Shown here: one piece after another, positions 50,606-53,027 of the stretch
Position numbering within the stretch: the stretch's first letter is position 1
How the letters are laid out: every line of letters starts with the position of its first letter
Virus record (IMG/VR): IMGVR_UViG_3300030116_000472
Location: 1-53,637 of that record
Origin: a virus
Length of the DNA stretch: 53,637 nucleotides
Reading direction: 5' to 3' (one strand)
The notes under the pieces: model-generated
Database searches by the model: none
Told to the model about the DNA's origin: nothing
What the model saw: the letters and a program-made list of their open reading frames with translations, nothing else
Program-made: the position numbers and the translations under genes

Positions 50606-50832
50606 TTTGTAATCTCCACTTCATTAGTTGTTTCAATCCATACCTTTGCACCACAAGACAAAGGTTTATCAGGTGAATAGACAACTTCACTATCACCTAG
50701 AATCTTTACCCTATGAGCATAGGTATTGGTCTTACCTTTTTTAATTGTCAATACAGGAAAGTTTGCTCCTGTCTTGAAGTTAGTTCTAATCACGTGTTGA
50801 TTAACGTGTATACGAGTCTTTGCTTTTCTCAT
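50602..50832 (-). CDS. small conserved phage protein
   Basis: A 76-residue basic, beta-rich protein: KAKTRIHVNQHVIRTNFKTG, VLTIKKGKTNTYAHRVKILG and VVYSPDKPLSCGAKVWIETT. I recognise this as a widespread small phage protein of unknown function. It starts in a TAATG overlap with the nucleotidase gene and ends in ATGA. One Cys; no membrane segment. Confidence 0.72.
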   Translation of the reverse strand: MRKAKTRIHVNQHVIRTNFKTGANFPVLTIKKGKTNTYAHRVKILGDSEVVYSPDKPLSCGAKVWIETTNEVEITK

Positions 50833-51383
50833 TAGAAATCTCCTCTAACTTTTTGTATTAACTTGATTGCTTTAGCTAGTTCATCTTCTAGCTTAGAGAT
50901 CCTATCTCTGTTAGCTTGCCACAGAATACCTAACCCACCTGCTTCTGTCCAACTCTTCACGTTGGTATGCTTATCATCTACAAGTATGTTAGGTGTACCA
51001 TCCACTCTGTTGGTAGCAAACTTATGTTTGGTGTGAGTAAAGATTAGGTTTTTAGTTTTACTACCCACTTTGTTAGGCATAAGGTTATGTGTTTCCAACC
51101 ATCTACGTTTCCAATAAGTACAGTTATCTCTGTCATTACGCAGAGGTGTAGAGCATATTCCCCAATCTAAATGAGGATACTTGTGTGTCAATTCTTTGAC
51201 ATGACCTACAAGAGGATACGTAGTATCGAATGGTTCTAAATTCCAAAAGAAGTTTGTATCTCTTAGCTGATCAAGAGCATCATTGATATCCTTGATATCT
51301 TTCCAATGGTTTACCTTAAACTTTTTCTCAAGTCCACCAAAGAAATCAGCCAACACACCATCCATGTCTAAATATATAATCAT
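50832..51383 (-). CDS. 5'(3')-deoxyribonucleotidase (HAD superfamily)
   Basis: A 183-residue phosphatase. DMDGVLADFF at residues 6-15 gives the nucleophile and acid Asp pair, ICSTPLRN supplies the HAD motif II Ser/Thr region, and NILVDDKHTNV the late Asp pair. This family removes phosphate from dNMPs. With the class II reductase and the MazG-like enzyme it would tune deoxynucleotide pools. TAATG overlaps on both sides, coupled to the methyltransferase gene. Confidence 0.8.
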   Translation of the reverse strand: MIIYLDMDGVLADFFGGLEKKFKVNHWKDIKDINDALDQLRDTNFFWNLEPFDTTYPLVGHVKELTHKYPHLDWGICSTPLRNDRDNCTYWKRRWLETHNLMPNKVGSKTKNLIFTHTKHKFATNRVDGTPNILVDDKHTNVKSWTEAGGLGILWQANRDRISKLEDELAKAIKLIQKVRGDF

Positions 51384-52519
51384 TATCTTTGCACTCCTTT
51401 CAATGCTTGAAATCCACAGCCACAGCCATCAAACAAACTGACAACAGTACCCAACCTATCTTGTGGTATGCCATTGAGTATATGCTTGATCACATCAACT
51501 GTCCACCCATTACCTATCATCTTGTAACGTCTTGAATTGCTGATAGGTTTTACTACTTGTTCACCAGAATGATGCCACCATGCTCCATGATCTGTGTACC
51601 CATCAGGCATAGTCTGTAGACGTTCACACTCAAGAGGTGTCAATGCTCTCCAATACAATTGATCTGTATTCACAGCAACATTATCTTTCTGTACTGTGGT
51701 CAGAGTATTAGTCTTGGTATCCTTGCGTAGCTCTAGTCTTTGTGTAGTTAGTCCTGCCGTTTTCATCTTGTGATCTTGACGAACACCATCAACGACATAC
51801 CTACCACGCCACGCACCACATACTACCTTAGGCATACGCCATCCACCTTGCATGGTGGTAAGGGCAGGTGACTTGTGCTTACGATCATAGACACGCTTGA
51901 TGATATCATAACCTTTGAGATCAGCTTCGCCAACCTGTCTACATTTTTGGTCATGGTTGAATACTAATTGTCTGCGTGACTTCTCAAAGTACATCTTCAT
52001 TGATCCACCTTTGAAATAGTTAGCATCAATACAGTAAGCTTTCTCCCTGTCGGTCATGCTTTCATCTTCAAGTATATCCTCAAGATTGATGCCAAGATTA
52101 GGCAAGTCATCGTGTGGTATGTTAGTCCAATACAATCTCTTCCTGTTCTGTGCAGACACAGACGCAGAGTTATGTACACGTGGCTCACATCCGAACTCAC
52201 GTGAGAATATATCTTGGTATTCTTTTTTCATTGGAGTTTCCTCAATAAGAAACCATTTAGGTTTCCACTTGTGGAATAGTTTAAAGAACTCTGTAGTAGG
52301 CTTGGCTCTCTCGTCATTAAAGTTAAGCTGATTACCTGCAAACGAGAACGGCTGACAAGGTGGACCTGCTAATAGCAGATCAACACCATCTTTATATCCC
52401 TCATACCATGAGTCTATGCGTAGCACATCACCCATATGATACACGTTAGGGTGATTGTATTGTGCTACTGCCATAGCGTATTCATCAATCTCACTTGCGA
52501 ATCCTAGTTCATATTCCAT
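51383..52519 (-). CDS. circularly permuted C5-cytosine DNA methyltransferase
   Basis: A 378-residue enzyme. Motif IV GPPCQPFS (52-59) with the catalytic Cys, VI FLIEET (ENV is EET), VIII QNRKRLYW (124-131), IX RALTPLECERLQ (291-302) and X YKMIGNGWTVDVI (332-344) are in normal order. Motif I, VVSLFDGCGCGFQAL (359-373), lies after motif X at the C-terminus; the N-terminus starts at motif II (ASEIDEYA). An in-frame TAA upstream rules out a hidden N-terminal motif I. No restriction enzyme lies beside it. It may protect phage DNA. Confidence 0.88.
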   Translation of the reverse strand: MEYELGFASEIDEYAMAVAQYNHPNVYHMGDVLRIDSWYEGYKDGVDLLLAGPPCQPFSFAGNQLNFNDERAKPTTEFFKLFHKWKPKWFLIEETPMKKEYQDIFSREFGCEPRVHNSASVSAQNRKRLYWTNIPHDDLPNLGINLEDILEDESMTDREKAYCIDANYFKGGSMKMYFEKSRRQLVFNHDQKCRQVGEADLKGYDIIKRVYDRKHKSPALTTMQGGWRMPKVVCGAWRGRYVVDGVRQDHKMKTAGLTTQRLELRKDTKTNTLTTVQKDNVAVNTDQLYWRALTPLECERLQTMPDGYTDHGAWWHHSGEQVVKPISNSRRYKMIGNGWTVDVIKHILNGIPQDRLGTVVSLFDGCGCGFQALKGVQR

Positions 52520-52692
52520 TACACTTTTCCTTTTATTTCTTTTAGTTGAAATGAGAAACCACCATTGGTATTAAACCAAACAGTTCCTAAAATTAATTCT
52601 ATAGATACTATCGTACCTTTAGTATCGCAGTTGAGGTATCTTGCTTTAGCAATAATAGTATCCCCAACTGCGTAGCCTTTATACTCCTGCAC
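52519..52692 (-). CDS. 57-residue KOW/SH3-like small protein with GTG start
   Basis: GTG at 52692 overlaps the stop of the HTH-like gene (TAGTG), and its TAA overlaps the methyltransferase ATG (TAATG). The sequence is all beta: YKGYAVGDTIIAKARYLNCD, TKGTIVSIELILGTVWF, FSFQLKEIKGKV. That is a small barrel reminiscent of KOW/SH3-like folds. Both overlaps, the lack of any other gene here and the regular pattern support it. Function unknown. Confidence 0.6.
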   Translation of the reverse strand: MQEYKGYAVGDTIIAKARYLNCDTKGTIVSIELILGTVWFNTNGGFSFQLKEIKGKV

Positions 52693-53027
52693 TAAGCAGA
52701 AGCTTTCTTCTTAGACTGTCCGACATCGGACACTTTGTGAGTACCTTTGTTAACAGTTGCACCTCTACCATACTTACGCACGATATGTTTACTATGGTTC
52801 TTCTGTAAGAATTGTACCCTGTACACTACCCTATTGAATGGCTCGTTAAGGATAGATGCAGTTTGTCTAATTGTGTACTGATCGTACATCTCCATCAATA
52901 CACCATCAATAAAAGCGTAGTTGTATGTGTAAGGTGTAGCCTTTTTGAAGTGTTGTGTATGTGTTGAATAGTCCACGACATTCATTGCAGGGTTTTCATT
53001 TTTAACTGTGTTGTTTAAATTTTTCAT
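52692..53027 (-). CDS. HTH-like putative DNA-binding protein
   Basis: A 111-residue protein. Residues 47-76 (MYDQYTIRQTASILNEPFNR then VVYRVQFLQK) look like a helix-turn-helix. The C-terminus is basic (GQSKKKASA). It is the best candidate regulator in the early operon, but no repressor family is recognised. It overlaps the next upstream gene by 4 bases (ATGA) and couples downstream by TAGTG. Confidence 0.55.
   Translation of the reverse strand: MKNLNNTVKNENPAMNVVDYSTHTQHFKKATPYTYNYAFIDGVLMEMYDQYTIRQTASILNEPFNRVVYRVQFLQKNHSKHIVRKYGRGATVNKGTHKVSDVGQSKKKASA

Follow-up and report, generated by a model that had tools for sequence, protein, structure and literature searches.

The question raised by this locus is whether a C5-cytosine DNA methyltransferase gene in which the conserved motif I comes last, after motif X, encodes a complete and genuinely rearranged enzyme, or is the product of truncation or mis-assembly. 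The gene was found in a virus sequence (IMG/VR record IMGVR_UViG_3300030116_000472), of which we analyzed a stretch of 53,637 nucleotides, referred to here as the window. It occupies positions 51383..52519 on the minus strand and encodes a protein of 378 amino acids with the motif order II-III-IV-VI-VIII-TRD-IX-X-I, which we designate a type-A permuted C5-cytosine DNA methyltransferase.

Assignment to the family is straightforward, as the open reading frame (ORF) scores above the curated cut-offs of both C5-cytosine DNA methyltransferase profiles. The Pfam profile PF00145 matched with 100.2 bits (cut-off 22; E 2.1e-28) over profile positions 23-322 of 324, and the NCBIfam profile TIGR00675 matched with 110 bits (cut-off 100.65) over positions 21-327 of 329. 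A comparison of the ORF with PHROGs also returned a C5-cytosine DNA methyltransferase. Since the PF00145 match begins at profile position 23, the N-terminal motif I of the profile is absent from the front of the ORF.

Motif order of the window methyltransferase

The protein starts 7 residues ahead of motif II (ASEIDEYA, aa 8-15; 52475..52498), which the sequence and alignments place at the end of β2. Motifs III (GDVL, aa 30-33; 52421..52432), VIII (QNRKR, aa 124-128; 52136..52150), IX (RALTPLECERLQ, aa 291-302; 51614..51649), and X (ISNSRRYKMIGNGWTVDVIKHIL, aa 326-348; 51476..51544) were located by alignment, and all of the features described here lie on the minus strand. Motif IV (DLLLAGPPCQPFSFAG, aa 47-62; 52334..52381) carries the catalytic Pro-Cys, and motif VI (FLIEET, aa 90-95; 52235..52252) retains the catalytic Glu93, but has lost the Asn of the usual ENV, which is replaced by EET. 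The variable region, or target-recognition domain (aa ~150-290; 51650..52072), forms the low-confidence portion of the structural model described below. Invariant in the alignment are P54 and C55, Q124-R126-R128 (the QxRxR of motif VIII), and G336-N337-G338 of motif X.

Comparison with canonical C-termini indicates that motif X is followed by a 10-residue linker, NGIPQDRLGT (aa 349-358; 51446..51475), which bridges the former C- and N-termini. Beyond it lies the segment that comprises motif I, strand 1, and helix A (VVSLFDGCGCGFQALKGVQR, aa 359-378; 51386..51445), moved to the C-terminus and identified by its match to a canonical N-terminal profile and by its dN/dS. It includes an FxGxG-type motif I, VVSLFDGCGCG (aa 359-369), so that the canonical order from I to X is not followed.

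Both gene junctions are TAATG, with one-base overlaps. The stop codon of an upstream 57-aa gene (52519..52692, minus strand) shares base 52519 with the ATG of the methyltransferase, and the ATG of a downstream 5'(3')-deoxyribonucleotidase-like gene (50832..51383, minus strand; phrog_2643, E 8.9e-21) shares base 51383 with its stop codon. The 57-aa gene is missing from the other contigs of the clade described below, in which a gene of ~110 aa, homologous to window positions 52692-53027, directly adjoins the methylase.

Evidence for a unit-length permutation

When the tail beyond motif X was compared with a profile of canonical N-termini, it matched positions 3-18, corresponding to motif I, with an i-E of 1.9e-7. 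Joining the tail to the head of the protein (VVSLFDGCGCGFQALKGVQR + MEYELGFASEID...) gave a one-piece profile match, with an E of 3e-13 for the window and values down to 1.5e-14 for its relatives, and the rejoined alignments that were listed contain only one inserted residue. The rejoined tail and head thus run along the canonical profile without a gap in coverage, so that the enzyme is complete and the permutation is of unit length.

We also considered whether a motif I might be supplied from elsewhere. Read from stop to stop, the frame is longer than the ORF by just 17 residues at its upstream end, and no motif I was found in this in-frame extension. The upstream gene was rejected as a source, given that the 57-aa ORF has neither a family match nor a motif I, as was a second methylase acting in trans, there being no second copy in the whole 60,292-base virus record.

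The same permuted order recurs in L001-L006 and L060, seven further contigs in IMG/VR that come from seven metagenomes, at 68-87% identity. These contigs share both protein ends with the window, and together with it encode six distinct proteins. In L006 and L060, the C-terminus stops at the same residue although the downstream gene differs, from which it follows that the tail belongs to the methylase. Values of dN/dS were 0.11-0.23 for the core and, in pairs that include the window, 0.09-0.17 for the relocated 23 codons, in which most of the other pairs show few changes. The relocated tail and the core are thus both under purifying selection. Within this clade, L002-L006 and L060 lack ~51 residues of the variable region that the window and L001 have, which is perhaps a change in target specificity among close relatives.

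The window is a single metagenomic contig, and phages commonly carry methylase genes in tandem, an arrangement that can mis-assemble, so one might suppose that the C-terminal motif I is an artifact or an unrelated tail, arising from an assembly error, a truncation, or read-through into a neighboring gene fragment. We regard this as extremely unlikely and rejected both assembly error and truncation, because eight independent records agree on the motif order and on both ends, the genes downstream differ, and the tail is under purifying selection. The sequence-only reading had put motif I after motif X with the remaining motifs in normal order, had argued from the upstream in-frame stop and the TAATG junction that the gene is not truncated, and had suggested a search for relatives with the same order; the profile matches, the short upstream frame, the two overlapping junctions, and the seven relatives with conserved ends bear this out. 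It had also allowed that homologues might reveal a normal N-terminal motif I that was lost here through an assembly error. Homologues with an N-terminal motif I do exist, but the permuted order is kept in all seven contigs, and the objection fails. At the level of sequence, these comparisons confirm a C5-methyltransferase with motif I last, as a derived, unit-length, type-A permutation (I/II break).

Relation to engineered and natural C5-methyltransferases

Permutation of C5-methyltransferases has been explored systematically in the laboratory, where permutants of M.MpeI and M.SssI were made in every inter-motif segment and ten types were active (Albert et al., 2018; PMC5944983). The first break class is represented by cp35M.MpeI and cp33M.SssI, both of which were active in vivo, with cp35M.MpeI scored as ++ (Albert et al., 2018; PMC5944983). 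Like the window protein, these two enzymes appear to have an I/II break (theirs is the first of ten designed break points, and the next, type B, is stated as II/III) and joined old termini; unlike it, they are man-made versions of CG-specific bacterial enzymes, and the paper reports no natural example (PMC5944983). The window protein has the features that define type A, namely a new N-terminus between motifs I and II, joined old termini, and unit length.

For the natural permuted C5 sequences in REBASE, 27 at that time, the break was reported to lie in the variable region in every case (PMC5944983), in line with the sequence-only reading, which had stated that known permuted enzymes such as M.BssHII break at other places. 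Its further suggestion, that an I/II break is undescribed, holds for nature as far as the search extended: in the open-access papers searched, no break at I/II, II/III, or III/IV was described for a natural enzyme. It does not hold for the laboratory, as the I/II break was built on purpose, with active products, and is consequently not unheard of (PMC5944983). It was the only report of permutation classes among the open-access papers searched. Breaks from I to III were active in the laboratory, and it was concluded that evolution favors paths that leave both domains intact; type B (II/III) was found to be the most active class when engineered and to be absent from nature (PMC5944983). As far as we could find, moving the first block to the end had been done in the laboratory and is apparently unreported in nature, and the evidence from the relatives indicates that here it is real and maintained.

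M.BssHII, M.Alw26I, M2.Eco31I, M.Esp3I, and M2.BsaI are, like the window protein, C5-methyltransferases with a permuted motif order. They belong to types H/J, with a break in the variable region that places IX-X before I-VIII and leaves both domains intact (PMC5944983). In contrast, the break in the window protein cuts the S-adenosylmethionine-binding core and only motif I follows motif X, an arrangement that differs from that of types H/J.

The plant DRM enzymes represent another known rearrangement of the C5 fold, with a different break. DRM2 and NtDRM, for which structures have been solved (4ONJ, 7L4C), resemble the window protein in having motif I in the C-terminal half. However, in DRM motifs I-V have moved as a whole block to a position behind the TRD part (profile positions 2-106 correspond to chain residues 230-348), whereas in the window protein only strand 1 and helix A have moved, and motifs II-IV and VI are N-terminal.

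Among enzymes with canonical order, the methylases of L011, L058, L007, L009, and the Roseobacter phages CRP-9 and CRP-603 are 42-56% identical to the window protein, have the same motifs, and come from similar phages with a similar gene neighborhood. They differ from it in that the N-terminus carries motif I or an equivalent segment and motif VI reads ENV. The catalytic domains of human DNMT3A and DNMT3B are among the best PDB matches to the window protein by both sequence and fold but, unlike it, are eukaryotic de novo methylases with canonical order.

Predicted structure and activity

An AlphaFold2 model of the permuted protein, made from a 23-row alignment, had a pTM of 0.64 and a mean pLDDT of 61, compared with a pTM of 0.63 and an equal pLDDT for a canonical control. 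Confidence was fair for residues 1-140 and 341-378 and poor for the variable region. Within the tail, the model contains a C-terminal strand (355-362) and a helix (368-374), with block-mean pLDDT values of 77-89, as would be expected for the β1-αA unit whose packing the sequence-only reading had proposed to check by structure prediction. In Foldseek searches, both models matched DNMT3 domains, over ~142 columns for the permuted model vs ~415 for the canonical control. The short alignment is what would be expected when a sequential aligner is applied to a rotated chain, and is no proof of sheet closure. The model thus supports a predicted C-terminal β1-αA, and closure of the sheet appears plausible from this secondary structure and from the engineered precedent.

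We consider it probable that the protein is a genuine, derived, unit-length permutation, broken in the loop that connects helix A, where motif I ends, with strand 2 of motif II, and that it presumably folds and is active. In such an enzyme, the single chain would fold with the 10-residue linker bridging the motif X helix and strand 1, and the C-terminal strand 1/helix A would occupy the position in the central sheet that it normally has. The Gly-rich motif I loop would then bind S-adenosylmethionine, while Cys55, Glu93, and QxRxR would methylate cytosine in the phage DNA, most likely as a means of escaping host restriction.

With a linker of only 10 residues, the C-terminal strand 1/helix A might instead complete the sheet of another molecule, giving an active, domain-swapped or trans-complementing dimer, and separate fragments of M.MpeI, [1-61] and [62-395], do complement each other (PMC5944983). 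We nevertheless think a swap quite improbable, as the N- and C-termini are near each other in C5 enzymes, which allows a single chain to close (PMC5944983), and the pTM of the permuted model equals that of the canonical control.

Alternatively, the protein could be catalytically dead or repurposed, binding DNA or S-adenosylmethionine while no longer methylating. Among the methylases that were fetched, EET in motif VI is confined to the window clade, where all members have it, and most of the others have ENV; this substitution could alter or weaken catalysis; in addition, type-A permutation lowered the solubility of engineered M.MpeI, which was poorly soluble (PMC5944983). Against this, the protein retains the Cys and the Glu as well as QxRxR and an FxGxG-like loop, and dN/dS is low over the full length, so that we judge a dead enzyme unlikely and infer that the permuted protein is probably an active methyltransferase.

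Phage context and ancestry of the permuted gene

The DNA polymerase encoded in the window shares 67.5% identity with its counterpart in Puniceispirillum phage HMO-2011, and the order integrase-primase-helicase-polymerase is the same in both, which identifies the window as part of an HMO-2011-like marine phage. In a tree of 54 methylase sequences with SH-aLRT support, the window clade (support 99) was sister to L011 and L058 (SH-aLRT 99), both of canonical order. L011 begins with MAKKIVVSLCGGTDSAYLSC, in the normal motif order, and a DUF932-like gene, an endolysin-like gene, and an integrase beside it are homologous to those neighboring the window gene. As the nearest relatives in the tree are canonical, and L011 resides in a syntenic phage, the permuted order is derived. 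Its most likely origin would be a tandem duplication, followed by in-frame fusion and trimming of both ends.

Other permuted, fused, and tandem methylases

Further permutations were sought with a 61-aa C-terminal alignment and two tightened DNA patterns; a looser DNA pattern gave mostly chance matches. A second, more divergent type-A clade was recovered (L213-L224, L446, L447, L449, and L450), ~48% identical to the window protein. Type C proteins (III/IV break), which have motif IV first and motif III last, are encoded at L212:1302-2294, L431:6272-7522, L390 (minus strand) 994-2181, and L422:4807-5862, and in two frames at L235:1258-2318. In L422, motifs I-III are also present a second time, in an ORF retained upstream, which looks like incomplete trimming. 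Type B (II/III break), starting at motif III and ending after motif II, was present among the looser-pattern matches; it is intact in the phage scaffold MT835513.1 (L467:1696-3345, 550 aa) and frame-broken at L158:5698-7423, at L095:909-3006, and in the Faecalibacterium phages Toutatis (L465, MG711466.1) and Lelie. The type-B methylase of Toutatis is annotated as two methylase genes.

One ORF, L226:1245-2951, is a head-to-tail fusion of two complete methylases, and L391 (minus strand) 60-1367 is a partial fusion. Arrays of at least three tandem methylase genes also occur in phage contigs, and were listed with these fusions (L165, L384, L429, and L404). Motif X was followed by motif I within 250 bases at 78 fetched loci, mostly as separate tandem genes, many of which were selected by the pattern, so that the number is not a frequency. 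Fused duplicates and tandem arrays are the kinds of intermediate that a route of duplication, fusion, and trimming would be expected to leave.

We think it likely that phages are a natural setting for circular permutation of C5-methyltransferases, and that at least three break positions in the S-adenosylmethionine-binding core (I/II, II/III, and III/IV) are now established in nature, apparently repeatedly, through tandem arrays and then fused dimers. It is also possible, although on balance doubtful, that both type-A clades (A1, containing the window, and A2) and type C go back to a single ancestral fused dimer, trimmed in different ways, rather than to separate fusions. Their junction peptides are alike (GIPQDRLGTVVSLFDG; FIPETYLHTVVSLFDG), and an AU test rejected neither A1 and A2 as one clade (p 0.32) nor A1, A2, and C together (p 0.129). 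However, the best trees separate A1, A2, and C, with A1 beside the canonical L011 and L058 (the node noted above), and GIP and VLSLFDG are common in canonical C- and N-termini, respectively.

If repeated fixation of core breaks is correct, it contradicts the published conclusion that nature permutes only at the domain boundary. The window gene and its kin are natural counter-examples to permutation confined to the variable region, with canonical relatives, fused dimers, and tandem arrays alongside them, and the model of permutation by duplication becomes testable on natural intermediates. Such genes are a source of ready-made permuted methylases for split-enzyme engineering, and annotation by motif order will mis-call or split them. 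At one further locus, L225:465-2084, a canonical phage C5 methylase is fused behind a stretch that resembles another DNA-modification protein, and is followed by a further methylase gene.
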